This document shows, piece after piece, positions 3,854 through 31,651 of a DNA stretch of 48,047 nt (its first letter is position 1; each line of letters opens with the position of its first letter). The stretch spans positions 1 to 48,047 of the forward strand of contig JAOPWV010000137.1 of the NCBI GenBank assembly GCA_025965475.1, given 5' to 3'. The DNA comes from Frankiales bacterium (GTDB taxonomy: Bacteria > Actinomycetota > Actinomycetes > Mycobacteriales > SCTD01). The notes under the pieces were generated by a model. That model did not search any database. It saw only the letters and a list, made by a program, of their open reading frames with translations, and was not told the DNA's origin. Both the position numbers and the translations under genes were made by a program.

Positions 3854-3974
3854 GCGCGGGACGGTACCGGCCCTCAGCCGGTTCGCAGCGTCGGGATGGG
3901 ACGCTGTAGGGATGCATCCGGTCCGCACCCGCGCGTTGACCGGCAGTTGGCGCTCCGTGCACGAGAATGACCCG

Positions 3975-9360: not shown

Positions 9361-9377
9361 CGGGTAAGGATCACCGC

Positions 9378-10709: not shown

Positions 10710-10731
10710 CCCGGGATGGCAGGGTGGGTCC

Positions 10732-11670
10732 ATGACAGCGACCAGCCCTGCCGCGGTGCCGGACGACGTCGTGGCGTGGGTGCAGTGGCCGGACCTCGAA
10801 CCGCCGCCCGGGGTCACGCTGCTGTCCCCGTCGGACGGGCCGCTCACGCCGGACCTGCTCGACCGGGTCACGTTCTTCGTACCGATCTACATGGGATCCC
10901 GTGAGTCGCTCGCCCTGGCCGCGCGGATGCCGCGGCTCCGGGTGCTGCAGCTGACCACGGCGGGCTACGAGGGGGCGCTCGAGTTCGTCCGCCCCGGGGT
11001 GACGCTGTGCAACGCGCGCGGCGTGCACGACGCGTCCACGGCCGAGCTGGCGGTGGGCCTCGCCGTGGCCGGCCGCCGCGGCTTCGCCGGGTTCGCGCAG
11101 AACCAGCAGAGCGGCAGCTGGCGGCACGAGACCCGGCCGTCGCTGACGGACGCACGGATCGCCGTGGTCGGGTACGGCTCCATCGGCAAGACGCTGCACC
11201 GGATGCTGACCGGCTTCGAGGTCACTGTCGTCCCGTTCTCCCGCAGTGGCCGGGACGGCGCCGAGAAGGTCGAGCGCCTACCGGACCTCATCGGCGAGTT
11301 CGACGTCGTGATCCTGGTCCTGCCGCTCACCGCCGAGTCGACGGGGATGTTCGACAGCGACCTGCTCGGGCGGATGAAGGACGGCGCCCTGCTCGTGAAC
11401 GTCGCACGGGGCGGCATCGTCGACACCGATGCACTGGTCGCCGAGCTCACCGCGGGACGGGTGCACGCCGCGCTCGACGTGACCGACCCGGAGCCGCTGC
11501 CGGCCGACCACCCGCTGTGGCACGCACCGAACGTCCTGATCACCCCGCACGTGGGCGGAGACACCTCGGCGTTCGAGCCTCGCGCCCGGCGGCTGGTCCA
11601 GGAACAGCTGCGGCGGTACAGCCGGGGCGAGCCGCTCGAGAATGTGATCGAGTGGACACCGCCAGGATGA
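10732..11670 (+). CDS. D-isomer-specific 2-hydroxyacid dehydrogenase
   Basis: A 312-residue NAD(P)-dependent dehydrogenase with the Rossmann motif VVGYGSIGKT and the catalytic set R226 (NVARGGIVD), E254 (DPEPLP) and H273 (TPHVGGD). Members reduce 2-oxoacids or oxidise D-2-hydroxyacids such as glyoxylate/hydroxypyruvate or phosphonate substrates; the sequence does not decide which. It is a second, shorter member of the SerA superfamily within 4 kb, without an ACT domain. The next gene, an FAH hydrolase, begins 28 bp downstream in the same direction. Confidence 0.9.
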   Translation: MTATSPAAVPDDVVAWVQWPDLEPPPGVTLLSPSDGPLTPDLLDRVTFFVPIYMGSRESLALAARMPRLRVLQLTTAGYEGALEFVRPGVTLCNARGVHDASTAELAVGLAVAGRRGFAGFAQNQQSGSWRHETRPSLTDARIAVVGYGSIGKTLHRMLTGFEVTVVPFSRSGRDGAEKVERLPDLIGEFDVVILVLPLTAESTGMFDSDLLGRMKDGALLVNVARGGIVDTDALVAELTAGRVHAALDVTDPEPLPADHPLWHAPNVLITPHVGGDTSAFEPRARRLVQEQLRRYSRGEPLENVIEWTPPG

Positions 11671-11698
11671 TGGTCACGATGACGAGAAGGAGCCAGCT

Positions 11699-12547
11699 GT
11701 GAAGCTCGTACGGGTCGGCGAGGCCGGCACGGAGACGCCCGCGGTGCTCACCGGGGACGACCGGCTGCTGGACCTGTCCGGTGTGGTCCCGGACATCGAC
11801 CCGGCGTTCTTCGCCGGTGACGGCCTCGCGCGGGTGGCGGCGGCGGCGGCCGGCGGCCTCCCGGAGCTCGACGCGACGGGTCGGCGGTTCGGCCCTCCCA
11901 TCCGGCGCCCCGGCAAGATCGTCTGCATCGGTCTGAACTACCACGACCACGCCCGCGAGACCGGCGCTGCCATCCCCGCCGAGCCCATCGTGTTCATGAA
12001 GGCGCCGAATGCCGTCGTGGGGCCCGACGACCAGGTGCTCGTGCCCAGGCAGTCGACCAAGACCGACTGGGAGGTCGAGCTCGCGATCGTCATCGGACGC
12101 GAGGCGCGCTACCTGGCCGACGAGGCCGCCGCCGCGGACGTCATCGCCGGCTACACGATCTGCAACGACGTCTCCGAGCGCGCCTTCCAGACCGAGCGCG
12201 GCGGGCAGTGGGACAAGGGCAAGTCGTGCGAGACGTTCAACCCGATGGGGCCGTGGGTCGTGACCGCGGACGAGGTCGGCGACCCGCAGCAGCTCGGCCT
12301 GCGGCTGTGGGTCAACGGCGAGCAGCGGCAGAACGGCACGACGAAGGAGATGATCTTCGGCGTGCACCACATCGTCTGGTACCTCAGCCAGTTCATGGTG
12401 CTGGAGCCGGGCGACGTGGTGAACACCGGCACCCCGGCCGGCGTGGCGCTGGGCATGCCCGAGCCGCGCTTCCTGCGGGCCGGGGACGTGATGGAACTGG
12501 AGATCGACGGTCTCGGCCGTCAGCGCCAGGAGGTCGGGCAGGCATGA
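11699..12547 (+). CDS. Fumarylacetoacetate hydrolase family protein
   Basis: A 282-residue protein of the FAHD1/ureidoglycolate-lyase-like branch. The conserved core begins IVCIGLNYHDHA and continues with DWEVELAIVIG (metal-binding Glu) and ICNDVSERAFQ (metal-binding Asp). The C-terminal TGTPAGVALG is also typical. Members cleave C-C bonds in 2,4-diketo acids or decarboxylate oxaloacetate. A good GAAGGAG site precedes GTG 11699. LutABC follow directly; FAH enzymes that split 2,4-diketo-3-deoxy-sugar acids release pyruvate plus lactate, so a functional link is plausible. Confidence 0.92.
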   Translation: MKLVRVGEAGTETPAVLTGDDRLLDLSGVVPDIDPAFFAGDGLARVAAAAAGGLPELDATGRRFGPPIRRPGKIVCIGLNYHDHARETGAAIPAEPIVFMKAPNAVVGPDDQVLVPRQSTKTDWEVELAIVIGREARYLADEAAAADVIAGYTICNDVSERAFQTERGGQWDKGKSCETFNPMGPWVVTADEVGDPQQLGLRLWVNGEQRQNGTTKEMIFGVHHIVWYLSQFMVLEPGDVVNTGTPAGVALGMPEPRFLRAGDVMELEIDGLGRQRQEVGQA

Positions 12548-12572
12548 CCACCGGCGGGCAGGGGGAGGCGTA

Positions 12573-13310
12573 GTGCGCGTCGCCCTGTTCGTCACGTGTC
12601 TGGTCGACACGCTGTTCCCGCAGGTCGGCCGGGCGACGGTGTCGCTACTGGAGCGGCTGGGGCACGAGGTCGTCGTACCGTCCGGCCAGAGCTGCTGCGG
12701 GCAGCCGCAGATCAACACCGGTTACCAGCGCGAGGCCCTGCCGCTGATCCGCCGGCACACCGACGTCTTCTCGGCGTACGACGCGGTGGTGGCGCCGTCC
12801 GGCTCCTGCGTCGGCAGCATCCGGCACCAGCACGCCATGGTGGCGCGGCGGGCCGGTGACGACGGTCTGGCCACGGCGGCCCACGACGTCGGCACCCGGA
12901 CGTACGAACTCTCCGAGTTCCTCGTTGACGTGCTCGGTGTGGAGGACGTCGGCGCGTCGTTCCCGCACCGCGTGACCTACCACCCCACCTGCCACTCGCT
13001 GCGGATGCTGCGGGTGGGCGACAAGCCGCTGCGCCTGCTGCGCAACGTCCGCGGACTCGACCTCGTCGAACTGCCGGCCGCCGACCAGTGCTGCGGCTTC
13101 GGCGGGACCTTCGCGGTGAAGAACGCGGACACGTCGACGGCGATGCTCGCCGACAAGATGCAGCACGTCCTCGACACCGAGGCCGAGGTCTGCACGGCAG
13201 GTGACTCCTCGTGTCTCATGCAGATCGGCGGCGGGCTCTCCCGCCTGCGCGCGGGCACCCGGACGCTCCACCTCGCCGAGATCCTGGCGTCCACGGAGCC
13301 TGCGGCATGA
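12573..13310 (+). CDS. lutA: L-lactate utilisation protein LutA ((Fe-S)-binding, CCG domains)
   Basis: A 245-residue protein with two cysteine-rich CCG domains: C9 with SCCGQP (C41, C42), and HPTCHS with CCGFGG in the second half. This is LutA/LldE, one of three subunits of the LutABC complex that oxidises L-lactate to pyruvate. GTG 12573 follows GGGGGAGG. Its first base is also the last base of the stop of a 9-codon reading frame at 12544-12573. The stop overlaps lutB's ATG by 4 bp, so the three lut genes are translationally linked. Confidence 0.94.
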   Translation: MRVALFVTCLVDTLFPQVGRATVSLLERLGHEVVVPSGQSCCGQPQINTGYQREALPLIRRHTDVFSAYDAVVAPSGSCVGSIRHQHAMVARRAGDDGLATAAHDVGTRTYELSEFLVDVLGVEDVGASFPHRVTYHPTCHSLRMLRVGDKPLRLLRNVRGLDLVELPAADQCCGFGGTFAVKNADTSTAMLADKMQHVLDTEAEVCTAGDSSCLMQIGGGLSRLRAGTRTLHLAEILASTEPAA

Positions 13311-14785
13311 GCACCTTCCTCGGCATGCCCGACGTCGGGCACGCGCCGCGGGGGGTGGGGCACCTGCGGGGCGAGGAGCCGTTCCCCGCCGCGGCGCGCA
13401 AGGCCCTGGCGAACGCCCAGCTGCGGCGCAACATCGGGCACGCCACCTCGACGATCCGCGCGAAGCGGGCCGCCGTGGTCGGCGAGGTTCCGGACTGGGA
13501 GGAGCTCAGGACGGCCGGTCGGGACATCAAGAACGCCACGATGCACCGGCTCGACAGCTACCTCGAGCAGCTCGAGGCCAACATCCAGGCGCGCGGCGGG
13601 GTCGTGCACTGGGCCCGCGACGCCATCGAGGCCAACGAGATCGTCACCCGGCTCGTGAAGGCCACCGGGTCGGACGAGGTCGTCAAGGTCAAGTCGATGG
13701 CGACCCAGGAGATCGGCCTCAACGAGGCGCTGGAGGCGGCCGGCATCACGCCGTACGAGACCGACCTCGCCGAGCTCATCGTGCAGCTCGGCCACGACCT
13801 GCCGTCGCACATCCTCGTCCCGGCCATCCACCGCAACCGTGCGGAGATCCGGGAGATCTTCCTCCGCGAGATGCCGGACGCGGACCCCGGCCTGACGGAC
13901 GAGCCGCAGGTGCTGGCGATGGCTGCACGCAAGCACCTGCGGGAGAAGTTCCTCACGGCGCGGGTCGCGATCAGCGGCGCGAACTTCGCCGTGGCCGAGA
14001 CGGGGACGCTGTCGGTCGTCGAGTCCGAGGGGAACGGGCGGATGTGCCTGACCCTGCCGCAGACCCTGATCACGGTGATGGGCATCGAGAAGGTCGTCCC
14101 GGCCTGGACCGACCTCGAGGTGTTCCTGCAGCTGCTGCCGCGATCGTCCACGGGCGAGCGGATGAACCCGTACACCTCGATGTGGACGGGGGTGACCCCG
14201 GGCGACGGCCCGCAGGAGTTCCACCTGGTCCTGCTCGACAACGGCCGGACGGCGACGCTGGCCGACCCGGACGGTCGGGAGGCGCTCAACTGCATCCGGT
14301 GCAGTGCCTGCCTGAACGTCTGCCCGGTGTACGAGCGGACCGGCGGCCATGCCTATGGATCGGTGTACCCGGGGCCGATCGGCGCCGTGCTCTCCCCGCA
14401 GCTGACCGGCATCGAGGACAACGCGTCGCTGCCGTACGCCTCCTCGCTGTGCGGGGCCTGCTACGACGTCTGCCCGGTGAAGATCGACATTCCGACCATG
14501 CTGGTGCACCTGCGCGCCGAGCACGTCGACGCCCGGCGTGCGGAGGGCCGGCCCTCACCAGAGGCGCTGGTGATGCGCGCGGCGGCCTGGACGATGAGCA
14601 ACCCGCGGCGCTGGGCGCTGGCGCAGCGGCTGACCCGGCTCGGCCGGCTGCTGGGGCGCCGTCGGGACCGGATCTCGCAGCTGCCGCCGCCGCTGTCGTC
14701 GTGGACGGCCAGCCGCGACCTGCCCCGCCCGCCGGAGGAGACGTTCAGCGAGTGGTGGACCCGGACCAGGGGGAGCCAGCCGTGA
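13307..14785 (+). CDS. lutB: L-lactate utilisation iron-sulfur protein LutB
   Basis: A 492-residue protein with an N-terminal LUD-type domain and a ferredoxin-like module. The first iron-sulfur motif has C329, C332, C335 and C339 (CIRCSACLNVCP). The second has C382, C385 and C389 (CGACYDVCP). Length and order match LutB/LldF. It is the electron-transferring core of the LutABC lactate oxidase. ATG 13307 overlaps the lutA stop, and the TGA overlaps lutC's GTG. The ETGTLSVVESEGNGR stretch is characteristic of the family. Confidence 0.95.
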   Translation: MSTFLGMPDVGHAPRGVGHLRGEEPFPAAARKALANAQLRRNIGHATSTIRAKRAAVVGEVPDWEELRTAGRDIKNATMHRLDSYLEQLEANIQARGGVVHWARDAIEANEIVTRLVKATGSDEVVKVKSMATQEIGLNEALEAAGITPYETDLAELIVQLGHDLPSHILVPAIHRNRAEIREIFLREMPDADPGLTDEPQVLAMAARKHLREKFLTARVAISGANFAVAETGTLSVVESEGNGRMCLTLPQTLITVMGIEKVVPAWTDLEVFLQLLPRSSTGERMNPYTSMWTGVTPGDGPQEFHLVLLDNGRTATLADPDGREALNCIRCSACLNVCPVYERTGGHAYGSVYPGPIGAVLSPQLTGIEDNASLPYASSLCGACYDVCPVKIDIPTMLVHLRAEHVDARRAEGRPSPEALVMRAAAWTMSNPRRWALAQRLTRLGRLLGRRRDRISQLPPPLSSWTASRDLPRPPEETFSEWWTRTRGSQP

Positions 14786-15411
14786 CCAGTTCGCGTGACG
14801 TGGTGCTCGGCCGGATCCGGGCGGCGGTCGGGACCGCTCCTGACCCGGGGCCGGTACGACGGGACTACCGCCAGGGCTCGGGCGCGCTGCCTGGGTCGCC
14901 GGAACTGCTGGACCTGTTCGAGGATCGGCTCGTCGACTACAAGGCCTCCGTGCGCCGGTGCGCGGCCGACGAGGTGACCGGTGCGGTGGCGACGATCCTC
15001 GCGGGCCGCTTCGACCGCCCCGCGCGCGTCGTCGTCCCGGCCGATCTGCCCGGGCCGTGGGCAGGTCCTGCCGCCGTCGTGGACGACGGCCTCACCCCCG
15101 CGCACCTCGACGCGCTGGACGGCGTCGTGACGGCCTGCGCGGTGGCGATCGCGGAGACCGGGACGATCGTCCTCGACGGCGGTGCGGGGCAGGGCCGTCG
15201 GGTGATCACGCTGGTGCCGGACCTGCACGTGTGCGTCGTCCGCGCCGACCAGATCGTCGGCTCGGTCCCCGAATGCGTCCGCCGGCTGGACCCCGAGCGG
15301 CCGCTGACGTTCATCAGCGGTCCCTCGGCCACCAGCGACATCGAGCTGTCCCGGGTCGAGGGCGTCCACGGCCCCCGGACGCTCGAGGTCGTCCTGGTGG
15401 TCCCGCGCTAG
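14782..15411 (+). CDS. lutC: Lactate utilisation protein LutC (LUD domain)
   Basis: A 209-residue LUD-domain protein, the third LutABC subunit. The family pattern is clear in AIAETGTIVLDGG, the VPDLHVCVVRADQIVGSVPE region and the SGPSATSDIELSRVEGVHGPR block near the C-terminus. It starts with GTG overlapping the lutB stop by 4 bp and ends the hydroxyacid operon. The convergent cupin gene begins (by its 3' end) only 4 bp further on, leaving no room for a separate terminator. Confidence 0.94.
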   Translation: MTSSRDVVLGRIRAAVGTAPDPGPVRRDYRQGSGALPGSPELLDLFEDRLVDYKASVRRCAADEVTGAVATILAGRFDRPARVVVPADLPGPWAGPAAVVDDGLTPAHLDALDGVVTACAVAIAETGTIVLDGGAGQGRRVITLVPDLHVCVVRADQIVGSVPECVRRLDPERPLTFISGPSATSDIELSRVEGVHGPRTLEVVLVVPR

Positions 15412-19854: not shown

Positions 19855-22407
19855 GTGACCGCAGTGCAGTCTGCGCGGGACCTGGTCGTCCAGGTACCGG
19901 CCATTGTGCAGGCATCAGAGCCGGCTCTGGAAGTCATCAGGGTAGAGGTCCCCGTGCAGGAGGGGCCCTGGCCGCACGAGCAGGCGGCGGGGGGCTTGCA
20001 CGTGAGCATCATCGTCCCCACGCGCAACGAAGCTGGCAACGTCGCGGAACTGCTGCGACGCATCGACGGGGGCGCCGAGGCGTTGCGCGTGGAGACCGTC
20101 TTCGTCGATGACAGCGACGACGACACACCCCAGCGGGTGCTCGAGGCGGGAGCGCTACTCGGCAGGCCGGTACGGCTGCTGCACCGGGCACGAGGAGATC
20201 GCGCGGACGGCCTCGGGGGCGCCGTCGTCAAGGGACTGGTCGCGGCCGACGCCGCCGGCGTCCCCTGGGCCGTGGTCATGGACGGGGACCTGCAGCACCC
20301 GCCGGAGCTCGTACCGGAACTTCTGCGCGTCGCCTCCGAGGCGGATGCGGACATCGTCGTCGCCAGTCGGTACGCGGGCACGGGCGACGCCGAAGGTCTG
20401 TCCAACCGCGGCCGGACGGCCGTCTCCCGCTTTGCGACGCTCGCAGCCAGGGTGCTCTTCCCGCGTCGGCTGCGGCCCATCAGCGATCCCATGAGTGGAT
20501 TCTTCGCCCTGCGGCTGGGTGCTGTCGACCTGTCGGCGCTGCGTCCCAAGGGGTTCAAGATCCTGCTCGAGATCGTTTTGCGCGGCGATGAGCTCAAAGC
20601 GGTCGAGGTGCCCTTCCACTTCGGTCCCCGGTTCTCCGGCCACAGCAAGGCGAGCATGCGCGAGGGGCTCCGCTTCCTGCAGCAGCTCGTCGTGCTGCGG
20701 ACGGTCGCCCGTGGCTTTCGCACCCCGGCCGCGGGAAGGTTCGCCCGCGCCGCCGGGTTCGGCAGCGTCGGCCTCACAGGCCTTGCGGTGAACGCGGTCC
20801 TGCTCTGGCTCCTGGCCGATCCTGCCGGGCTCCACCTGCACTACGTCTGGGCCTCGATCCTGGCCACGCAGGGATCGACCATCTGGAACTTCGTCCTCAC
20901 CGATCTCGTGGTCTTCCGGCGCCTGCGTTCCGGCAGCCTGCGCCGGCGCTTTGTGCGCTTCGCCTTGCTGAACAACGCCGTCCTGCTGCTGCGGCTGCCC
21001 CTGGTGGTGGCCCTCGTCGCAGGTGCGCATCTCGGCTACGTCGCCGCGAACGTCCTCACGCTCGTGCTGGCCTTCCTGTGCCGGTTTCAGATCGCAGACC
21101 GCTTCATCTACCCCCCGGAGGTATCAGACATGAGACTGGTGGAAGCCGGCAAGCTCGACGTGCCGAGGCAGCACCGCGGCGCCGCGGGAGAACCGCTCGT
21201 TGCCGTGGATCCGCTGCCCGGGACGGGCCCCCGCGCGGGCCGGCGCCCCACCGTCGACGTCATCCTCGACCTGACCGAGCAGGTGCGGCCCACACCGGCC
21301 GCGCGCCGTCCGGGGACGGGCTACCTGCCGCACCGCTACGGCATCAGCGGCCTGGTCACCATCGGCTCCCAGGTCGCCCTGCCCGAACTCGAGTTCTTCC
21401 GCGCACCTGCTCTCGGGCGAGGTCTGGACATCGAGATCCGCGTCGGGACCGTCGGTTCAGGCAGGGCCCGCTCGCGGGCACAGCTGAGCCGGTTCGCCGG
21501 TCCGGTATCCCTGCGCTACGAGGAGCACCTCGGACGGCTCGGCGCGAACTTCCAGATCGACATGGGTGACCGCATCGAGCTGACCGTCACGCCGCTGCTG
21601 GCCCGGTCGCCGCATGTGCTGTACACGAACGTGCTGGAGGCACTGCTGCGGTTCATCCTCGTGCAGCAAGACAGGATGCTTCTCCACTCGGCCTGCCTCG
21701 AGCTCGAGGGTCGCGGCGTCATGTTGTCGGCGAAGACCGACACCGGGAAGACAGGCACGATCCTGCGGCTGCTGCGGGAGCAGCAGGCCCGCTTCCTGTC
21801 CGACGACATGACGATCCTGCAGACGGATGGCACCGCCTTCTGCTTCCCCAAGCCGCTGACGATCAGCCACCACACGTTGAGGGCCGTGGATCCCGGCGAC
21901 CTCTCCCCGCGGGAATGGCGCAGGTTGAAGATCCAGAGCCGGCTGCACTCCAAGGAGGGACGCCAGTGGGGGATGATGCTCGGTGAGCTCAACGTCCCGC
22001 TGATGTCGTTCAACGCGGTCACCCAGATGCTCGTACCGCCGCCCAAGTACGCGGTGGACCGGCTCGTTCCGGCGGACGTGACCGGGTCGGTGGTGGTCGA
22101 GGAGATGTTCATCATCGAGCGCGGCACGCCGGCCCTGTCGGACATCGAACACCGCACGGCGCTGACCGAGTTGATCGAGAACACCGACGACGCCTACGGA
22201 TTCCCGCCGTTCCGCTACTTCGCGCCGGCCATCGTGCTCGGACACGACGACTACGACACGCTGCGCGACAAGGAGACCGCCGTACTGTCCGCGGCGCTGG
22301 AGGGCATGCGCGTACGGCGGCTTGCCTCGGACTGCTTCTCGTGGGCCGATGAGATCCCGCGCCTGCTGAAGGCACCCATCCTCGCCGAGGAGCGCTTCTC
22401 CTCCTAG
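19855..22407 (+). CDS. Fusion: polyprenyl-P-sugar synthase (GT2) + GtrA + HPr kinase-like domain
   Basis: An 850-residue three-part protein. Residues about 49-290 are a GT2 of the dolichol-phosphate mannose synthase type: SIIVPTRNE at 51-59, the DGDLQHPPE metal site with D143 and D145, and a conserved RYAGTGD loop. Residues about 298-415 are a GtrA-like membrane domain with four helices. Residues about 600-790 resemble HPr kinase/phosphorylase: LLHSACLELEGRGVML, a P-loop AKTDTGKT (K632) with Ala in place of the first Gly, and SDD at 649-651. The 415-600 segment is unassigned. GTG 19855 has GGAGGG at good distance. It probably makes a lipid-linked sugar used by the GT39 enzyme downstream; the kinase-like part may regulate or phosphorylate. 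Confidence 0.88.
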   Translation: MTAVQSARDLVVQVPAIVQASEPALEVIRVEVPVQEGPWPHEQAAGGLHVSIIVPTRNEAGNVAELLRRIDGGAEALRVETVFVDDSDDDTPQRVLEAGALLGRPVRLLHRARGDRADGLGGAVVKGLVAADAAGVPWAVVMDGDLQHPPELVPELLRVASEADADIVVASRYAGTGDAEGLSNRGRTAVSRFATLAARVLFPRRLRPISDPMSGFFALRLGAVDLSALRPKGFKILLEIVLRGDELKAVEVPFHFGPRFSGHSKASMREGLRFLQQLVVLRTVARGFRTPAAGRFARAAGFGSVGLTGLAVNAVLLWLLADPAGLHLHYVWASILATQGSTIWNFVLTDLVVFRRLRSGSLRRRFVRFALLNNAVLLLRLPLVVALVAGAHLGYVAANVLTLVLAFLCRFQIADRFIYPPEVSDMRLVEAGKLDVPRQHRGAAGEPLVAVDPLPGTGPRAGRRPTVDVILDLTEQVRPTPAARRPGTGYLPHRYGISGLVTIGSQVALPELEFFRAPALGRGLDIEIRVGTVGSGRARSRAQLSRFAGPVSLRYEEHLGRLGANFQIDMGDRIELTVTPLLARSPHVLYTNVLEALLRFILVQQDRMLLHSACLELEGRGVMLSAKTDTGKTGTILRLLREQQARFLSDDMTILQTDGTAFCFPKPLTISHHTLRAVDPGDLSPREWRRLKIQSRLHSKEGRQWGMMLGELNVPLMSFNAVTQMLVPPPKYAVDRLVPADVTGSVVVEEMFIIERGTPALSDIEHRTALTELIENTDDAYGFPPFRYFAPAIVLGHDDYDTLRDKETAVLSAALEGMRVRRLASDCFSWADEIPRLLKAPILAEERFSS

Positions 22408-22423
22408 CCGCAGAGCCGGCGGC

Positions 22424-22469
22424 AGCCGGGCCCAGGGGACGGACCCTCTCCCCTCCGACAGGCCCGGCT
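22424..22469 (+). terminator. Strong two-tier hairpin after the fusion gene
   Basis: A 9-bp perfect outer stem (22424-22432 with 22461-22469) encloses a 6-bp inner stem (22434-22439 with 22449-22454). It begins 17 bp after the stop codon. No T-run follows. It probably ends or attenuates transcription between the synthase and the five downstream genes, or protects mRNA ends. Confidence 0.6.
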
Positions 22470-22564
22470 CCGGCACGGCCACCCAGCAGGTGACATGCAA
22501 CGTTCGCAGGCATATGTCGCACCGACGGTCGGGACGGCAACGCCCTCCACACAGAGGATCGGGA

Positions 22565-25150
22565 ATGGCAGGAACTCGGGGGCGGCACCAGCTGCCACGT
22601 GAGGCCCCGGCCAAGCCGCGTGGCCGGCGGTCCGCGGTGCCGGTACTCGTGGCCCTGCTCACCGCCGCCGTGGCCGTCCCGATCGCGGCCGCGGCCGACA
22701 CGAGCGCGCCCACACAGCCGGGCAGGATCACCACCTCGAACATCACCTCGTCGGGGGCTTCGCTCAAGTGGGGCGGGTCGAGCGATGACGTGGCCATCGA
22801 GGGCTACCGGGTGTACCGCGGTCCGGCGGCGGCGGCCGACACGGCACTGACGCTCATCGCCACCACCGATGCGATCACGTCGTATCCGGGCACGAAACTG
22901 CGCAGCGGCTATGCCTACAAGTTCGGGATCGTGGCCATCGACGCCGGCAACAACAAGTCGCCGATGCGTACGACGACGTTCACGACGCTGACCAGTTCCG
23001 ACTCGACGGCTCCTGCGGCCGTCGCAAGCACCAGCGTCTCCTTGACGCCCTTCTCGTCCTCGCGCATCGACGTGCTGTGGGGAGCGACGACCTCCAGCGA
23101 CATCGCCTACTACGAGGTGGCCCGGGACGGCAGCGTCGTGGGGACGGTGGAGCAGCCCAACTCGCAGCGCTACTCCGACAACGGCCTCGCGGCCTCGTCG
23201 CGGCACAGTTACACAGTGCGGGCCGTGGACTCGGCAGGCAACCGGTCGGCAGCCAGCACCGCGAAATCGGCGACGACCACCGCCGCGGGCGTCGTAAAGA
23301 TCGCGCGTGGGCCCTACCTGTCCGCGGTCACCGGGACGTCCGGGATCGTCTCGTGGTGGACGAACATCGCCACGCCCGGCACGCTCACGATCGGCGGGCA
23401 GACGATCAGCGATCCGGCCGGGACGGTCCAGCACCACACCGTCACCGTGTCTGGACTGACGCCGGGCACCGCCTACCCCTACACGGTGAAGAGCGGAGCG
23501 ATCTCGGGGACAGGGAACCTCCGGACCGCAGCGACGCCGACACAGACGTTCAGCTTCGCCGCCATCGGTGACTTCGGGGGTCAGAGCACGGCCGAGGCGC
23601 AGAACGCGAGCAACATCGGGGCCGCCGGCACGGACTTCATCCAGACCCTGGGTGACAACGTCTACCCGTCGGCCGGCCTGCCCGACCCCAACTTCACGAC
23701 GACATACTCGGACTTCGACGCCCGCTTCTACAAGCAGTTCGGGCGGGTGGTGAAGTCCCAGGCCTTCTTCCCCGCGAACGGCAACAAGGAGTACTACGGC
23801 GACGGCGCCTTCTGGGCGAACTTCCCGATGCCAGGAGGCAGTACCAGCTGGTACAGCTACAACTGGGGCTCGGCGCACATCCTCGTCCTCGACTCGGAGC
23901 AGCCGATAGCGCCGGGGAGCGACCAGTACGCCTTCGCGCAGGCCGATCTTGCCGCGCACCAGAGCGACGCGTGGCGGATCGCCGCCATCCAGAAGCCGCC
24001 GTACAGCTCGACGTCCTCGAACTCGAGCTTCGTGGCCGGCCAGCAGTACCTCGTGCCCCTCTTCCAGACGCAGCACGTGAACCTGGTCCTCTCGGGCAAC
24101 AGCCACAACTACGAGCGGTCGTTCCCGCTCAAGGACGGCGTCGCCGTGACCAACGGCGGGATCACCTATCTCGTCTCGGGTGCCGGTGGCAACGGGTTCA
24201 CCCCCTTCGTCAGCCCGCAGCCCGCCTGGAGCGCCTACCGGGAGGCCACTTTCTTCGAGTACGCGAAGGTGACCGTCTCGCCGACCACGATCACGGTGGA
24301 CGGCATCAGGGCGGACACGAATGCCGTCTTCGACAGCACCACCATCACGAACCCGTCCAGTGACACGGTGGCGCCGGGTGCGCCGGCGGGGTTGGCGGCG
24401 GGGACGCCGACGGCGAGTTCGGTGCCGTTGAGCTGGAGTGCGAACCCGGCAGGTGATGGTGTGACGGGCTACACCGTGTATCGCAACGACGTGACGGCGC
24501 CCGCGGGTACGGCCCTGACCGGGACCACGTTCACCGACACCGGGCTGGCCGCGAGCACGACGTACTCGTACAGGGTGACGGCGGTGGACGGGGCCGGCAA
24601 CGAGTCGGCCAAGAGCGCGGCGGTGTCGGTGACGACCCAGGCCGGTGGTGGCGGTGGGGGCGGCACGTTGACGCTCGCGCCGAGCAACGACGCCACGATC
24701 GATCCGGCAACCGCCACGCCGACCAACAGCCGGCTCAAGGTCGATGCGAGCAGTCCGGTGAACGACACACTCTTGAAGTTCACCGTGCCCAGCAGTTGCA
24801 CGAGCATCGCGGCAGCGAGTCTGCAGCTCACGGTGGGCAGCGGGACTACCGATCCTTCGGCGCACGGCGGGGACTTCTTCGCCACGTCGGCCGGCGATGC
24901 GAACGCCGGCTGGACCGAGGCTTCGGTCACCTGGGCCACCGCCCCGGCCAAGAGCGCCAGCATCGCCTCGGTGCCGCTCGGCGCGGTGACGGCCGGGACC
25001 ACCTACACGGTCAACGTGACCAGCCTGGTCCCGGCCGCCGGCGGCACGTTCACGATCCGCGCGTCCAGCAGCAGCGGCGACGGTGCCGGCTACTTCTCCA
25101 AAGAAGGCAGCAGCACCAGCGGCCCCACGCTCCAACTCACCTGCAGCTAG
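22565..25150 (+). CDS. Secreted FN3/purple acid phosphatase-like protein with altered metal site
   Basis: An 861-residue exported protein. A basic leader and hydrophobic stretch end at AAAADTS. Two FN3 domains (about 45-235) and a PAP N-terminal-like domain (to 330) follow. A metallophosphoesterase domain covers about 330-590, then a third FN3 and a C-terminal DNRLRE/CBM96-like beta domain with a Gly linker. D336, D364, Y367, N407 and H514 are in place. However the GNH motif reads GNK (K408), the HxPxY His is Q476, and GHxH reads GNSH (N512). By homology to plant purple acid phosphatase, two ligands of the second metal and a catalytic His are lost, so it may bind rather than hydrolyse phosphate esters. 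Confidence 0.85.
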   Translation: MAGTRGRHQLPREAPAKPRGRRSAVPVLVALLTAAVAVPIAAAADTSAPTQPGRITTSNITSSGASLKWGGSSDDVAIEGYRVYRGPAAAADTALTLIATTDAITSYPGTKLRSGYAYKFGIVAIDAGNNKSPMRTTTFTTLTSSDSTAPAAVASTSVSLTPFSSSRIDVLWGATTSSDIAYYEVARDGSVVGTVEQPNSQRYSDNGLAASSRHSYTVRAVDSAGNRSAASTAKSATTTAAGVVKIARGPYLSAVTGTSGIVSWWTNIATPGTLTIGGQTISDPAGTVQHHTVTVSGLTPGTAYPYTVKSGAISGTGNLRTAATPTQTFSFAAIGDFGGQSTAEAQNASNIGAAGTDFIQTLGDNVYPSAGLPDPNFTTTYSDFDARFYKQFGRVVKSQAFFPANGNKEYYGDGAFWANFPMPGGSTSWYSYNWGSAHILVLDSEQPIAPGSDQYAFAQADLAAHQSDAWRIAAIQKPPYSSTSSNSSFVAGQQYLVPLFQTQHVNLVLSGNSHNYERSFPLKDGVAVTNGGITYLVSGAGGNGFTPFVSPQPAWSAYREATFFEYAKVTVSPTTITVDGIRADTNAVFDSTTITNPSSDTVAPGAPAGLAAGTPTASSVPLSWSANPAGDGVTGYTVYRNDVTAPAGTALTGTTFTDTGLAASTTYSYRVTAVDGAGNESAKSAAVSVTTQAGGGGGGGTLTLAPSNDATIDPATATPTNSRLKVDASSPVNDTLLKFTVPSSCTSIAAASLQLTVGSGTTDPSAHGGDFFATSAGDANAGWTEASVTWATAPAKSASIASVPLGAVTAGTTYTVNVTSLVPAAGGTFTIRASSSSGDGAGYFSKEGSSTSGPTLQLTCS

Positions 25151-25288
25151 GGCGGTTGCCCGATGCCCGAAGGGACCGATGCATTCGATGACCACGTCGT
25201 CTGGCCGATCCGTACGGCGTTCCGGAACGGCGGCACCTCAGCGAAGCCGCCGACTTCCCGTGACGCAGCCGCCTACCCGGAGGAAAGC

Positions 25289-26947
25289 ATGACGCTGGTG
25301 TCGATGCCGCAGACCGAGTCCCGGCTCCGCAATCGTCGCGAGGGCAGGGCAAGAACATCGGCCGGCAGACTCAACGGGACGTCGGTGCAGTCGGCTGCCG
25401 TCGCAGGCGTCGCTGTCCTGGGCGCGTTCCTGCGGCTCTGGCAGTTGGGGTCCGTCGGCTTCAACAGCGACGAAGCGGTCTACGCGGGCCAAGCCGCCAG
25501 CATCGCGGGTAACGACACGCTGATGTCCTACTTCCCGATCTTCCGCGCGCATCCGCTGCTCTTCCAGGCCACGCTGTCGCTCTTCTACCGGCAGGGCGTC
25601 TCCGACGCAGGTGGGCGCGTGCTGGCCGCCGCTTTCGGTGTGGCAACCCTGTTCGTGGTCCTCCTGCTCGGCCGGGAGCTCTACGGCTTCTGGACCGGGC
25701 TGGTCGCCATGCTGTTCCTGGCGGTCATGCCGTACCACGTCATCGTGACCCGGCAGGTCCTCCTGGACGGGCCGATGGTGCTCTTCGCAACCCTGGCCCT
25801 CTACTTCCTGGTCCGCTTCTGCAACGAGGCGCGCGACGCCTGGCTGTTGATGTCGGCTCTGTTCCTCGGGCTCGCCGCACTGACGAAGGAGACGAGCGTC
25901 GTCCTGCTGGTCTCCGTCTACGCCTTCTTCGCCCTCAGCACGCGCCTGCGCCTGCGGATGCGGACGGGCCTCCTCGGCGTACTCGCGATGCTCCTGCTGC
26001 TCGCCGTCTTCCCGATGTCGATCGCCCTGTCGCACGCCACGAGCACTGGTGGCAGTTACCTCGTGTACCAGCTGCTCCGACCGGCGAACCACAGCCTCAC
26101 CTTCTACCTCAGCAAGGTGCCGTCGGCATTGGGCCTGCTCCTCGTGGCGCTCGCACTTGCCGGCCCGATGCTGGTGCTGGCCCGGTGGGCCGGCTCTGCG
26201 AGCCGTCGTGCACTGCGGCGTCCCGGTCCGGCGGCTGCCGGTATCACGATCCGGGGCCTGACCTGGCGGGAGGGGTTGTTGTTGTGCTGGGCCGCGGGGC
26301 CCATCCTGGTCTTCGAGTCGCTGCCCGTGAAGGGGTTCCAGTACCTGCTTCCCATCGCGCCGGTCGTGGCGGTGCTGGCGGCACACGCGGTGCTGCGCCC
26401 GCCGATCAGCAGCGTCCGGTTCACGGTCCGGGAAGGTCTCCGTCTGCCGCTGCGGATCGCGGTCATCGTGGTGGTCGCGCTGACGATGGCGCTGCCGACC
26501 TGGGGAGCCATCAGGCCATCGAGCTCGCCGGCCTTCCTGGCCGGAGCCGGCGGGCTTCCGGGCGGACGCGAAGCCGGTAGGTGGATCGACGCCAACCTGC
26601 CGAAGAACGCGGTCCTCATGACGATCGGCCCGTCCTTGTCGAACCTCGTCGAGTTCTACGGTCACCGCGAGGCACTGGCTCTGTCCGTGAGCCCCAACCC
26701 GCTCAACCGGAACCCGGCGTACGTGGCCATCGACAACCCCGACCTGCGGATCAGACGCGGGCAGTTCCACTACCTCGTCTGGGACACCTACTCGGCAAGC
26801 CGTTCCCCCCAGTTCTCCGACAGGCTTCTCCAGTACGCGAACAAGTACCACGGCGTCGCCGTGCACACGGAGACGCGACCCGTCCGGTCGAGGGACGGCC
26901 ATGTCGTCCAGCGGCCGATCATCACCATCTATGAGGTGCAACCGTGA
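25289..26947 (+). CDS. GT39-type membrane glycosyltransferase (PMT/ArnT-like)
   Basis: A 552-residue polytopic membrane protein with about 10-12 helices. The first extracytoplasmic loop has FNSDEAVYAGQ, where D61-E62 is the catalytic acidic pair of GT-C enzymes that use polyprenyl-phosphate sugars. The C-terminal 120 residues form a soluble outer domain. An excellent GGAGGAAAG site fixes ATG 25289. The family transfers a sugar from a lipid phosphate to protein or lipid, and the upstream fusion would make such a donor. Its stop overlaps the next gene by 4 bp. Confidence 0.9.
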   Translation: MTLVSMPQTESRLRNRREGRARTSAGRLNGTSVQSAAVAGVAVLGAFLRLWQLGSVGFNSDEAVYAGQAASIAGNDTLMSYFPIFRAHPLLFQATLSLFYRQGVSDAGGRVLAAAFGVATLFVVLLLGRELYGFWTGLVAMLFLAVMPYHVIVTRQVLLDGPMVLFATLALYFLVRFCNEARDAWLLMSALFLGLAALTKETSVVLLVSVYAFFALSTRLRLRMRTGLLGVLAMLLLLAVFPMSIALSHATSTGGSYLVYQLLRPANHSLTFYLSKVPSALGLLLVALALAGPMLVLARWAGSASRRALRRPGPAAAGITIRGLTWREGLLLCWAAGPILVFESLPVKGFQYLLPIAPVVAVLAAHAVLRPPISSVRFTVREGLRLPLRIAVIVVVALTMALPTWGAIRPSSSPAFLAGAGGLPGGREAGRWIDANLPKNAVLMTIGPSLSNLVEFYGHREALALSVSPNPLNRNPAYVAIDNPDLRIRRGQFHYLVWDTYSASRSPQFSDRLLQYANKYHGVAVHTETRPVRSRDGHVVQRPIITIYEVQP

Positions 26948-28269
26948 AGCAACGAGCAGCGTTCTGCGCGGCCGTGCTCTGCCTGCTGCTGGCTGCGTCC
27001 TCTGCCGCTGCCGCCGGGCCGGCACCGGCGCCGACGAAGACACCGATCAAGCACTTCGTGGTGCTCATGCAGTCCGGGCACTCCTTCGACAACTACTTCG
27101 GCAGCTATCCTGGCGCCGACGGCATCCCTGCCGGTGTCTGCCAGCGCCTGGACGTCAACAAGGCGAGCACGCACAACTGCGTGAAGCCGTTCCATCTGGA
27201 CGACATGACGCCGCCCGAGAATCTGCCCCGGGGGCTGAAGGTCCTGAGCCGCCAGTACAACGGCGGCAAGATGGACGGCTTCGTGTCGGCCTACCGTCGC
27301 CTGGGGCACGACGGAACGACGGCGATGGGCTACTACGACGACAGCAACCTGCCCTACACCTGGAGCGTGGCCAGGCAGAACGTGCTGTTCGACCGCTTCT
27401 TCAGCTCCACCCCAGGGCCCGCCAGTCAGAGCTACCTGGACTGGCTGGATGGGGCCCCGCCGAACCGGTCGGCGACGGCCGTCCAACCCACCATCTTCGA
27501 CAGGCTGGGTGAGAAGGGCATCACCGCGAAGTTCTACGTGGAGGGCCTGCGGCCTCCGGGGGACGTTGCCGGCAACGGCGCGGCCCAGTCCCTCAAGGTG
27601 CCGGTGCTGGGGATGGCCCGATTCCGGACGCGCACGTCCCCGGTACAGGTCGTCGACCTCAGCGAGTACTACCGCGACCTGGCGCAGGGGACGCTGCCTG
27701 CCGTCTCGTACATCGTCTCGTCCACCTCGAGCGAGAACCCCCCGGCCCGGCCGGCGGTGGGGCAGTCCTTTCTCCGTCAGGTGACCAGCGGGCTCATCAA
27801 GAGCCGCTACTGGAAGAGCTCCGCGTTCATGTGGACCTACGACAGCTACGGCGGCTGGTACGACCACGTCCAGCCCCCCTTCGTGGATCAGCAGCAGCTG
27901 GGCCTGCGGGTGCCGGCGCTCCTGCTCAGCCCGTACGCCAAGGTCGGCCACGTCGACCACACGCAGCTCGACTACACGAGCATTCCGAGGTTCATCGAGG
28001 ACAACTGGTCGCTCCGGCCGCTCAGCAGCCGGGATGCGTCGTCACCTGGTCTGACGACCGCGTTCGACTTCACGGCACCAGCCCGGCCCGCCGCGTTGCT
28101 CGAGGACACGGGCGGACTGCCCTCACTCGTCATGCCCGCAGCGGCAAACGCACGCGCGTCCCGGGTGATCTACCTGCTTTACGGGGCTGCGGTGGTACTC
28201 GCCGCATGCTGCCTGGCGGCAGCCGTCAGCGGCCGTCGCTTCCGCCACCGGAGAGGAGCAAGAGGATGA
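26944..28269 (+). CDS. Membrane-anchored phosphoesterase (PF04185-like) with changed motif
   Basis: A 441-residue protein with a signal peptide, an alkaline-phosphatase-fold phosphoesterase domain and a C-terminal helix (about 409-429) followed by RRFRHRR, so it faces outward. The fold marker HSFDNYFGSYPGADG is clear, but the usual ENxSFD metal ligands Glu-Asn are Ser44-Gly45. The later acidic pair in YDxxGGWYDH keeps D300 but has Ser at 301. In well-studied members (phospholipase C, AcpA) these residues hold the metal. A divergent actinobacterial subgroup may share this, and I cannot say whether it is active. It overlaps both neighbours by 4 bp. Confidence 0.85.
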   Translation: MKQRAAFCAAVLCLLLAASSAAAAGPAPAPTKTPIKHFVVLMQSGHSFDNYFGSYPGADGIPAGVCQRLDVNKASTHNCVKPFHLDDMTPPENLPRGLKVLSRQYNGGKMDGFVSAYRRLGHDGTTAMGYYDDSNLPYTWSVARQNVLFDRFFSSTPGPASQSYLDWLDGAPPNRSATAVQPTIFDRLGEKGITAKFYVEGLRPPGDVAGNGAAQSLKVPVLGMARFRTRTSPVQVVDLSEYYRDLAQGTLPAVSYIVSSTSSENPPARPAVGQSFLRQVTSGLIKSRYWKSSAFMWTYDSYGGWYDHVQPPFVDQQQLGLRVPALLLSPYAKVGHVDHTQLDYTSIPRFIEDNWSLRPLSSRDASSPGLTTAFDFTAPARPAALLEDTGGLPSLVMPAAANARASRVIYLLYGAAVVLAACCLAAAVSGRRFRHRRGARG

Positions 28270-29507
28270 CCTTGGTGCCTCTCGTCGGCAAGGCTGCGTC
28301 CGTGGCCGTGATCCTGGCAGGGCTGCTGGCGCCGACAGCGCCACAGAAGCCTGTCGCCGTCCCGCCCGCCGCGTCGGCGCCCGGACTGCCTGCACCCGGA
28401 CTGGCGGCTCCCGCAGTGCCGGTTCCCGGCGTCTCGCATCCGCTCCTGACGCAGGCTGGGCCGGCCCCGCAGGCAGCCCGCGTCGCGGCGTCACCACCGC
28501 CGCACCCGCACAAGGTCCCGCGCCCTCCGCGGCCCCACCCGCACAAGATCCCGGTCATTCCCCGGCCACACCCGCACCGCGCGGTTGCGGTGGTGGAGAT
28601 CCAGACGGTGCCGTCACTGCCCGGGGCGGCGTTCCTCCTCGACGGCCGCCGTCTGGTGGCTGACAACCAGGGGATCGTCAGGACCTCGGTCACGACGGGC
28701 AATGCCCTGCACAGCCTGTCGGTCGCCACGTCCACGGCCGAGCAGAGTGGCCGGCAGATGGAGTTCGTGCGCTGGGGGATCCCGGGCGACAGCGACGAGA
28801 ACTTCAAGCCGGCGGTCACCAAGCTCGCGATCCGGCACAACGTGCGGATCCAGGCCGCCTACAAGGTGAGCTATCTCGTGTCGTACCGGCTGGTCGACCA
28901 GTCGGGCGCCGCCGTCGCGAGGTCCCGGGCGGGACAGGTGGCGCTGCGTGGCGAGACCGGCTACGTCGCCGTCTCGAACGCGGGGGACAAGGTCAGGTTG
29001 CCGGGCATCCGGTTGCTGTCCCAGAACGGAGCCGTCGTGGCCAAGGAACTGGTCTACGACGTCCAACGCGTCATGGTCGACGGCTCCAATGTCGTCCAGG
29101 TGGGCAGCCAGCGATTCCGCCCGGCGCAGGCACAGCAGCTGGACATCCCGTTGCAACTGCGCACCGCGCACTTCACCGCGCACGACCTTCTGTTCCAGCG
29201 TCCCCTGGGCGCATCGCTCGACGTCGTGTATCCGAACGGCCGGACCCGCCGCGAGGCGCTGTCGGGCGGCCAGGTGACGCTGGAGAGCCTCGCCCGCGGA
29301 AACTACCGGGTGCAGGTGAACGGTGCAGGCATCTCCTTCATGCGCCCCATCGCCCTCTCGCGTAATCAGTACGTTGATCTGCCGGTCATCAGCTACCTGG
29401 ACCTGGCGGTCCTCAGCAGCGCGGCGCTGGCCGCCCTCGGCGGCCTCCTGTTCGTGGGAGTACGCCGACGGCGCCGCGTCCGGACGGGTCCGGAGCCGGC
29501 ATTGTGA
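28266..29507 (+). CDS. Membrane protein with His-Pro repeats and PEGA-like domain
   Basis: A 413-residue protein with an N-terminal hydrophobic segment, a long Pro/Ala-rich linker, three PHPHK/R repeats at 79-83, 90-94 and 101-105 (exact 11-residue period), then a beta-rich region. The start of that region (VPSLPGAAFLLDGRRLVADNQG) resembles PEGA surface domains. A membrane helix at about 375-395 and an RRRRRVR tail anchor it. The His pairs could bind Zn, Ni or Cu, or the linker may span the wall. No known family recognised. ATG 28266 overlaps the previous stop; the stop overlaps the next GTG. Confidence 0.75.
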   Translation: MTLVPLVGKAASVAVILAGLLAPTAPQKPVAVPPAASAPGLPAPGLAAPAVPVPGVSHPLLTQAGPAPQAARVAASPPPHPHKVPRPPRPHPHKIPVIPRPHPHRAVAVVEIQTVPSLPGAAFLLDGRRLVADNQGIVRTSVTTGNALHSLSVATSTAEQSGRQMEFVRWGIPGDSDENFKPAVTKLAIRHNVRIQAAYKVSYLVSYRLVDQSGAAVARSRAGQVALRGETGYVAVSNAGDKVRLPGIRLLSQNGAVVAKELVYDVQRVMVDGSNVVQVGSQRFRPAQAQQLDIPLQLRTAHFTAHDLLFQRPLGASLDVVYPNGRTRREALSGGQVTLESLARGNYRVQVNGAGISFMRPIALSRNQYVDLPVISYLDLAVLSSAALAALGGLLFVGVRRRRRVRTGPEPAL

Positions 29508-31651
29508 GAGTCCGGCTTCTGTTCTTTCTCGTCGTCCTCCTGGGTGTCAGTGCCGGGGGCACCGGTCCACTGGCGGCTCCGCCGGCCCGTGCAGCCGGGC
29601 ACATGCCGGTCCTCGCGTACTACTACCAGTGGTTCGACCCCTCGTCCTGGGACCGGGTGAAGATCGACTACCCGGCCGCCGGACGCTACTCGAGTGACGA
29701 CCAGAACGTCATGCGGCGTCACATTCAGGAGGCCAAGGCCGTCGGGATCGAGGGGTTCATCGTCTCGTGGAAGGACAGCCCGACCAACGACCGCCGGCTG
29801 CATGTCCTGATGGAGGTGGCGCGGAGCGAGAACTTCAAGCTCGCGATGATCTACCAAGGGCTCGACTTCAGCCGTAAGCCGCTGCCGGTGCGTCGCGTCG
29901 CGGCTGACATGTTGACTTTCCAGCGGGACTACGCCGGTGACGGCGTCTTCAAGATCTTCGACCGACCCCTGATGCTGTGGTCGGGGACCTGGGCGTACAG
30001 CGCGGCGGACATCGAGCAGGTGACACGCCCGGTGCGGTCGTCGCTGCGGGTACTCGCCACGGAGAAGAGCGTGGCGGGCTACCAGCGGGTCGCCTCGAGC
30101 TTCGACGGCAACGCGTACTACTGGTCGTCGGTCAACCCGGACAGCAACCGCAGCCATGTCACGAAACTCGCCGACATGGGCCGCGCCGTGCACGCGCGGG
30201 GCGGGCTGTGGATCGCGCCGTTCGCGCCGGGCTTCGATGCCCGCCTCGTCGGCGGCAGCAAGACGGTCGACCGCAAGGACGGCGCGACGCTGCGGGCCGA
30301 GTACTCCGCAGCGGTGCAGTCCTCGCCCGACGCGCTCGGGCTCATCTCCTGGAACGAGTTCTCGGAGAACACCTACGTCGAGCCGAGCCAGACCTACGGC
30401 GATCGGTACCTGAAGGTTCTCGGCGAGTTGCTCAAGGCGCCGCCGGTCCCGGCATCGCCACTCGCCCAGGATTCCAGTGGTAATGGCTCCGGGTCCGGCG
30501 GCTTGTCTACCGGTCCTGTCGCGCTGATCGTGGTCGCTCTCATCCTCCTCGTCGCCGGTGGGGCCGCGGGGATCCGCCGCCGGAGCAAGGCCTCGGCGAA
30601 AGACAGGCCCGCGGACCCTCCTGAGTCGCTGCCTCCTACACCGCGCCGCCGGCGGTTCTGGCGCAGACGGAGATACCAACGGCTCCTCGCGGTGACCGTA
30701 CTCATGCTGGTGGCCGGCGGATCGGCCGTCATCGCGGTCGCTGCCGAGTCAGGGGACGAGGGGGTCGCGGCCGGGACCCGGTTCTACGGCGGTCCGAAAC
30801 CGGTGCGGGTCGACACGGACGTGGTCCTCGGCGCGGCCGGCGACATCGCCTGCCCGAAGGACGCCCGCGGACTCACCGAGGAAAAGGACCGGCCGAACTC
30901 GTGCCGGATGGCCGACACGGCCGCACTGCTACAGGCCATGCACCCGGACGCCGTCCTGGCACTGGGGGACAACCAGTACCCCAACGGTTCACTGGCGCGG
31001 TTCCAGGCGTCGTACGACCAGACCTGGGGGGCCTTCAAGACGATCACCTATCCCGTACCGGGAAACCACGAGTACGGGACGCCTGACGCCGCCGGCTACT
31101 TCAGTTACTTCGGGGCCGCTGCCGGCCTGCCGGGCGCCGGGTACTACAGCTACGACCTCGGTGGCTGGCACATCATCGCGCTGAACTCCGAGTGCGACCA
31201 CGTGGGCGGTTGCGGCCAAGGTTCGACGCAGGAGACCTGGCTCCGGCAGGATCTGGCGGCGCACCCGGCCGCCTGCACCCTGGCGTACTGGCACCGGCCC
31301 CGGTTCTCATCCGGGACGCACGGCAGCAACACCGACTACGACGCGTTCTGGAACGACCTCTCTGCCGCTGGGGCGGACGTCGTCCTCAACGGACACGATC
31401 ACGGCTACGAGCGGATCGGTCCGGTTGATGCCGCAGGCACTCCGCAAGCCGACAAGGGGCTCACGCAGTTCGTCGTCGGCACAGGTGGCGACAGCCATTA
31501 CAAGTTTCACGACGCGGTCTCCGGCAGCCAGGTACGGCTCGCCGGCCGCTACGGCATCCTGCAACTGCACCTCCGGCCGGGAACGTTCAGCTGGAACTTC
31601 CTCACGACCGATGGCGGCTCCGCGGATGCAGGAACGGGCCGTTGCCACTGA
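29504..31651 (+). CDS. Fusion: GH99-like glycosidase + two TM helices + metallophosphatase
   Basis: A 715-residue protein. A signal peptide is followed by a TIM-barrel-like domain (about 33-310) with AYYYQWFDP, GFIVSWKD and ISWNEFSEN (E285, E288), the layout of GH99/GH71-type endo-mannosidase-like proteins. Helix 1 (337-356) and helix 2 (394-414) flank a very basic 37-residue cytoplasmic loop. A metallophosphoesterase domain (about 440-715) then has a full canonical site: D447, D489, Y492, N521-H522-E523, H597, H631 and H633. Both enzyme domains should face outside. GTG 29504 overlaps the previous stop by 4 bp. It ends the cluster and overlaps the convergent HxlR gene by 50 bp. Confidence 0.85.
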   Translation: MRVRLLFFLVVLLGVSAGGTGPLAAPPARAAGHMPVLAYYYQWFDPSSWDRVKIDYPAAGRYSSDDQNVMRRHIQEAKAVGIEGFIVSWKDSPTNDRRLHVLMEVARSENFKLAMIYQGLDFSRKPLPVRRVAADMLTFQRDYAGDGVFKIFDRPLMLWSGTWAYSAADIEQVTRPVRSSLRVLATEKSVAGYQRVASSFDGNAYYWSSVNPDSNRSHVTKLADMGRAVHARGGLWIAPFAPGFDARLVGGSKTVDRKDGATLRAEYSAAVQSSPDALGLISWNEFSENTYVEPSQTYGDRYLKVLGELLKAPPVPASPLAQDSSGNGSGSGGLSTGPVALIVVALILLVAGGAAGIRRRSKASAKDRPADPPESLPPTPRRRRFWRRRRYQRLLAVTVLMLVAGGSAVIAVAAESGDEGVAAGTRFYGGPKPVRVDTDVVLGAAGDIACPKDARGLTEEKDRPNSCRMADTAALLQAMHPDAVLALGDNQYPNGSLARFQASYDQTWGAFKTITYPVPGNHEYGTPDAAGYFSYFGAAAGLPGAGYYSYDLGGWHIIALNSECDHVGGCGQGSTQETWLRQDLAAHPAACTLAYWHRPRFSSGTHGSNTDYDAFWNDLSAAGADVVLNGHDHGYERIGPVDAAGTPQADKGLTQFVVGTGGDSHYKFHDAVSGSQVRLAGRYGILQLHLRPGTFSWNFLTTDGGSADAGTGRCH

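Follow-up and report, generated by a model that had tools for sequence, protein, structure and literature searches.

The window analysed here, a stretch of 48,047 nucleotides from a draft genome of 3.9 Mb (98% complete), carries a cluster of six genes on the + strand between positions 19855 and 31651. In the following, these are referred to as g1 to g6:

19855..22407, + strand: g1, GT2 polyprenyl-P-sugar synthase with a GtrA membrane domain and a kinase-like domain assigned to the PEPCK/HprK superfamily by modelling (Pfam, AlphaFold2 model, PDB fold match, invariant residues in 30 homologs)
21253-22404, + strand: the kinase-like part of g1
22490..25150, alternative start 22637, + strand: g2, exported FN3 / purple-acid-phosphatase-like / FN3 / CBM96 protein, phosphatase probably inactive (Pfam, lost histidines)
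25163..26947, + strand: g3, PMT_2-type GT-C glycosyltransferase (Pfam, DE motif)
26944..28269, + strand: g4, exported PF04185 protein with a C-terminal anchor, probable pseudoenzyme (Pfam, alignment to AcpA 2d1g, active-site table, TM segment)
28266..29507, + strand: g5, protein with a Pro/His-rich stalk, predicted CnaB/Ig-like domains and a C-terminal TM segment (AlphaFold2 model, fold search, family alignment)
29504..31651, + strand: g6, GH99-like domain, two TM segments and a metallophosphatase domain outside (Pfam, PDB sequence match to GH99, WNExxE, TM segments)

The initial annotation had described six same-strand genes with 4-bp overlaps joining g3 to g6, and both the coordinates and the junctions were confirmed, as the g3/g4, g4/g5 and g5/g6 junctions each show an exact 4-bp overlap. 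The gap between g2 and g3 is 12 bp and that between g1 and g2 is 80-230 bp, depending on the g2 start chosen, and g1 starts with a GTG downstream of a ggaggg stretch. No tRNA genes were found in the window. The domains named in the initial annotation were likewise recovered in the six genes, by Pfam or, for the kinase-like one, by fold. Elsewhere in the window, consecutive genes for a PIG-L deacetylase, a GT4 glycosyltransferase and a PAP2_3 protein (3912-6702) may form a separate glycolipid operon, and consecutive genes for hydroxyacid dehydrogenases, an FAD-linked oxidase and LutB/LutC-like proteins (6782-15411) resemble a lactate or hydroxyacid utilisation operon.

Gene g1 combines a Glycos_transf_2 domain (PF00535, 2.6e-18) with a GtrA_DPMS_TM domain (PF04138, 4.7e-16) in one protein, and the catalytic Asp residues of the GT2 part are kept in 28 of the 29 members covering these sites. 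The remaining part was proposed to be HPr-kinase-like, which is clear by fold, but the domain falls below the HprK family cut-offs: it scored 16.3 bits against Hpr_kinase_C (PF07475; cut-off 33.3) and 22.8 against NCBIfam HprK_rel_A (cut-off 200), ruling out HprK/P proper. The Hpr_kinase_C match was seen in 11 of 16 kinase-domain homologs when E values up to 0.1 were admitted. A profile search of PDB sequences with the kinase domain gave no match even at E 10, and the link to PEPCK and HprK is therefore drawn by fold comparison only. An AlphaFold2 model built from 16 homologs (mean pLDDT 84) matched PEPCK in Foldseek (3e-6) and aligned end-to-end with the ATP-dependent PEPCK 1j3b (Z 14.8, rmsd 4.7, 293 residues), and over residues 140-384 it aligned with HprK/P 2qmh (Z 12.7, rmsd 3.9, 138 residues). 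The best PEPCK alignments begin at PEPCK residue 76-96, leaving uncovered the region of Arg65, the substrate-binding arginine of E. coli PCK. By its model, the domain is predicted to be a member of the PEPCK/HprK superfamily that has a PEPCK-like length and an HprK-like core.

The active site of this domain looks intact. The His of the LLHSAC motif, the P-loop AKTDTGKT, the SDDM pair and the residues of the LHSKxGR and PPPK motifs were invariant in all 30 kinase homologs, except for one basic position at which two of them have K instead of R; the His and Asp residues concerned are catalytic in PEPCK and HprK. With 49-63% identity, the kinase domain is the best-conserved part of the core and more conserved than the synthase to which it is fused. 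The initial annotation had regarded a kinase as unexpected in such a pathway, and we know of no other pathway of this type with such a domain; here it is the best-conserved core part and is found also together with a different GT-C/GH5 set (see below).

Three phosphatase-fold domains of two families had been noted, and the folds are indeed present, but g2 and g4 lack active-site residues, ruling out three active phosphatases. In g2, which matches fn3, Metallophos_C and CBM96 in Pfam, the GNH, H and His pair seen in the phosphatase domain of cluster relatives are replaced by GNKE, Q and GNSH. Three active-site histidines are lost, and the domain is probably inactive. A g2-like gene occupies the same place only in locus L073, and g2 is accessory and outside the core. 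An exported protein with CBM96 and beta-helix domains was observed near the cluster in five loci (L077:18706-20193, L183:4770-6323, L184, L194 and L198).

Gene g4 is a member of the Phosphoesterase family by score (PF04185, 1.7e-57, 195.7 bits). At the positions of E43, N44, S/T175, D386 and D/E387 of AcpA (2d1g numbering), the metal ligands and nucleophile of the enzyme, it has S, G, A, D and S, so that four of the five catalytic residues are replaced. The complete set (E, N, S/T, D, D/E) was found in 7 of 25 cluster members and was degenerate in 18, and PF04185 paralogs outside the clusters of the same genomes have intact active sites wherever the alignment covers them. Judged by these residues, g4 is probably a pseudoenzyme, a conserved protein that appears to have lost catalysis in most lineages, and a phosphoesterase that is conserved yet catalytically dead suggests an enzyme turned binding protein. 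The metallophosphatase domain of g6 (Metallophos, 7.5e-9) is intact at the sites lost in g2 and is the only one of the three that looks active.

Both PMT_2 (1.2e-19) and PMT exceed the Pfam cut-off in g3, although PMT_2 also spans GT-C families other than the GT39 named before, and the DE pair of the PMT proteins is kept in 26 of 26. The first domain of g6 matches Glyco_hydro_99 (3.1e-12, 46.7 bits against a cut-off of 33), with the catalytic Glu pair (WNExxE) kept in 25 of 25 sequences covering it, and its relatives in the PDB are endo-alpha-mannosidases, including bacterial mannan-degrading enzymes. Two GH99-like genes lie close together in four loci (L185:13179-15919, L186:3751-6526, L191:3027-6027 and L202:995-3994).

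No Pfam match was obtained for g5, which has a signal-like N-terminus, a Pro/His-rich stalk, beta domains, a C-terminal TM segment and a basic tail. Its AlphaFold2 model (pLDDT 78) resembles the CnaB and transthyretin-like domains of pilins and adhesins, the best fold match covering residues 298-377 (8bdw, Z 10.1, 82 residues). Over its whole length g5 matched no single known fold, only the CnaB-like parts doing so, and we describe it from the model as a putative CnaB/Ig-like membrane-anchored surface protein. The stalk in L074 shows the abundance of Thr, Ser and Pro that targets of O-mannosylation have, but the g5 proteins of L080-L082 are without a stalk, so a role of g5 as glycan acceptor is no more than a possibility. 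Signal and TM segments are predicted for g4, g5 and g6.

If the neighbours belong together, they should be found together in other genomes, and a neighbourhood search showed that they are. All parts of the core, in the order GT2-GtrA-kinase / PMT_2 / PF04185 / g5 / GH99, are present and colinear in 20 loci (window, L074, L075, L077, L080-L083, L085, L183-L186, L193-L196, L199, L200 and L232), counting L074, where a contig end interrupts GH99. In L198 the core set is divided into two divergent blocks, and in L073, L076, L078, L187 and L190 contig ends interrupt the set before completion. The carriers are Actinomycetota of more than one class and one Chloroflexota bin; they include the cultured type strain Agromyces humatus JCM 14319, which has the whole set (L075), a locus from another class of the phylum of the window (L232), and bins labelled by their depositors as Pseudonocardiales, Micromonosporaceae, Acidimicrobiales, Propionibacteriaceae and Chloroflexi. 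In 10 loci (L075, L078, L085, L183-L186, L192, L193 and L199), LuxR-family response regulators are encoded near the cluster, and none was called beside the copy in the window.

Among 349 genomes of the order of the window, the kinase domain was present in 19 and g5 in 17, with both in 16 (Fisher p 1e-23). In 13 of these 16, the window included, the two lie on one contig within approximately 6.5 kb; a partial g5 adjoins the kinase at a contig end in G490, and the kinase and g5 halves are on separate short contigs in G475 and G495. The kinase domain is rare elsewhere, being found in 2 of 395 genomes of the class (E 1e-20) and 3 of 396 genomes of the phylum (E 1e-10; the window included and one match weak and partial), and it was absent from the three same-genus genomes compared. 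The distribution of the cluster is patchy. The PMT, PF04185 and g5 proteins of the window are closest to those of the Propionibacteriaceae locus L083 (57, 57 and 43%) and its kinase is among the furthest (49%), which suggests that modules may have been exchanged between clusters.

Several genes of the cluster are also found fused. Gene g5 and GH99 are in one frame in six loci (L075, L077, L183, L184, L194 and L196), PF04185 and g5 are fused in L085, GH99 and the metallophosphatase are fused in the window, L083 and L199, and GtrA and the kinase form one protein, with GT2 as a separate gene, in L083, L084 and L232. Fusions across the cluster argue that its products work as one machine. We further compared 18 kinase loci with 54 control loci that carry a related GT2-GtrA but no kinase. 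PF04185 was found in 15 of the kinase loci, g5 in 15, GH99 in 14, PMT in 16 and the metallophosphatase in 12, as compared to 0, 0, 0, 4 and 1 of the controls, p values being indicative only as Microbacterium and Streptomyces are over-represented among the controls and some members of the test loci had gone into the profiles. The search for a metallophosphatase gave no match in the vicinity of several complete clusters (L082, L183-L186 and L194).

The kinase-fused synthase also occurs in a second conserved context (L062:6637-17087 and L192:902-7800), where the genes after it encode a membrane GT2 of the Glyco_tranf_2_3 type, a GT-C-like protein and a GH5-type protein, and both loci have a metallophosphatase near by; the Pfam basis is L062 for GT2 and GH5 and L192 for PMT_2. 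This synthase is therefore used with more than one gene set. Moreover, g1 is present and g4, g5 and GH99 are missing in four loci (L062, L072, L079 and L192), hence this synthase is not tied to one product.

In summary, the cluster is a recurring, conserved gene module that appears to make and trim a surface glycan outside the cell membrane. We consider it probable, with some reservation, that extracytoplasmic glycosylation is its dedicated function, carried out by a system of the GtrA/GtrB/GT-C or three-component type to which a kinase and a surface complex have been added. As in known three-component systems (PMC11127046), a lipid-P-sugar would first be synthesised and a GT-C enzyme would then transfer its sugar. 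In the cytoplasmic step, the GT2 domain of g1 would place a sugar, probably mannose, onto polyprenyl phosphate, and GtrA would serve as membrane anchor and may assist in moving the donor to the outer side. Outside, g3, the GT-C protein, would attach this sugar to its acceptor, either a glycan or a protein of the surface, for which the Pro-rich g5 stalk is a possible candidate. GH99 would cut the product internally, a trimming role suggested by its homology to endo-alpha-mannosidases, with the intact metallophosphatase of g6 acting beside it, and g4, g5 and g6, which are all membrane-anchored and have a domain on the outside, probably assemble into one complex for binding and trimming the product. 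The kinase-like domain is expected on the cytoplasmic side, where the donor is made; our best guess is that it uses ATP to phosphorylate the lipid-linked donor, the sugar of this donor or a protein of the pathway, and that the donor is thereby modified or gated. What the analysis shows is the gene set with its order, co-occurrence, fusions and kept or lost active-site residues, together with the predicted folds; the sugar, the acceptor, the complex and the kinase substrate are what we infer.

The initial annotation had proposed one pathway that adds, trims and senses a mannose-type glycan. The view of the cluster as one unit with a coherent synthase/GT-C/GH99 set is borne out by the conserved order, by the kinase in 16 of 17 g5 genomes and by the fusions, but nothing found spoke for the sensing. 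It is solely the homology of the GH99, PMT and DPMS-like parts that points to mannose, and enzymes of the GT2/GtrA and PMT_2 families also use other sugars, among them glucose and galactose.

The part played by the kinase can be read differently. It is conceivable, though we think it rather unlikely, that the kinase is regulatory and, depending on the energy state, phosphorylates GT2, GtrA or a protein of the pathway, as HprK does with HPr, switching glycosylation on or off. Its HprK/P-like core fold (Z 12.7) agrees with such a role, as do the LuxR-type response regulators at 10 loci, which hint at regulated expression, whereas the conserved set includes neither an HPr-like protein nor another obvious substrate and the domain is more conserved than the synthase that it would regulate. 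We give a smaller chance to a phosphoglycan pathway, in which the kinase phosphorylates the lipid-linked sugar or the polyprenol before export, the GT-C protein transfers it outside, the dead g4 binds the phosphosugar, the metallophosphatase strips the phosphate and the GH99/phosphatase pair trims. The fusion of the kinase to GtrA even where GT2 is separate, the metallophosphatase near 12 of 18 kinase loci as compared to 1 of 54 controls and also in the GH5-type loci L062 and L192, and the retained fold of g4 after the loss of catalysis would fit such a pathway; the complete clusters without a nearby metallophosphatase do not. To our knowledge, PEPCK/HprK-superfamily kinases act on proteins, peptides or oxaloacetate and not on lipids, which also counts against it, and this would be the first kinase of the superfamily to act on a lipid-linked sugar.

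Use of GH99 and the outer proteins to harvest foreign mannan or phosphorylated glycans, with the glycosyltransferases incidental, seems improbable: bacterial mannan-degrading enzymes are among the GH99 relatives and g2 carries FN3 and CBM96 domains, but it is the synthase and GT-C genes that stay constant in the conserved order and no sugar transporter belongs to the conserved set, so that a foraging locus is disfavoured. A chance gathering of unrelated neighbours, which the patchy distribution and the lack of the kinase domain in the three same-genus genomes might suggest, is ruled out by the order in 20 loci, the co-occurrence (p 1e-23) and four kinds of fusion.

Compared to known systems, the glycosylation module is apparently undescribed, since the open-licence literature searched gave no description of its combination of genes, of the kinase fusion or of the pseudo-phosphoesterase. 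The kinase-like domain shares the P-loop core fold and the layout of His, GKT and Asp-Asp with HprK/P and the HprK-related kinases (PF07475, TIGR04352; lasso-peptide kinases), but it scores below the Pfam and NCBIfam cut-offs, aligns with PEPCK in its N-terminal half, is fused to a membrane glycosyltransferase and has no HPr in the cluster. With ATP-dependent PEPCK the entire domain aligns (approximately 285-302 residues, Z 13-14.8), however with approximately 10% identity, an rmsd of 4.4-5.2 and a glycan gene context. A kinase superfamily known for HPr regulation and gluconeogenesis is here fixed to a lipid-linked-sugar synthase, raising the question of what the kinase phosphorylates and whether it sets or modifies the surface glycan. 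Gene g4 belongs to the family of Francisella AcpA and phospholipase C (PF04185) and, unlike them, has four of five active-site residues replaced. The domain match and both catalytic Glu residues relate g6 to GH99 endo-alpha-1,2-mannosidase/mannanase (4acy, 4ad1), from which it differs in being anchored in the membrane and in its fusion partners, a metallophosphatase in the window and g5 at other loci. Finally, the three-component systems (GtrA/GtrB/Gtr of Shigella and Salmonella; the pentofuranose systems of Citrobacter, PMC11127046) likewise bring together a synthase, a GtrA or flippase-type protein and a GT-C protein, whereas here the synthase and GtrA are one protein with the kinase-like domain fused to it, and a pseudo-phosphoesterase, an Ig-like surface protein and a GH99-like hydrolase are added. 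In conclusion, all the parts can be assigned to known families or folds, and we regard the cluster as a probable variant of three-component glycosylation.
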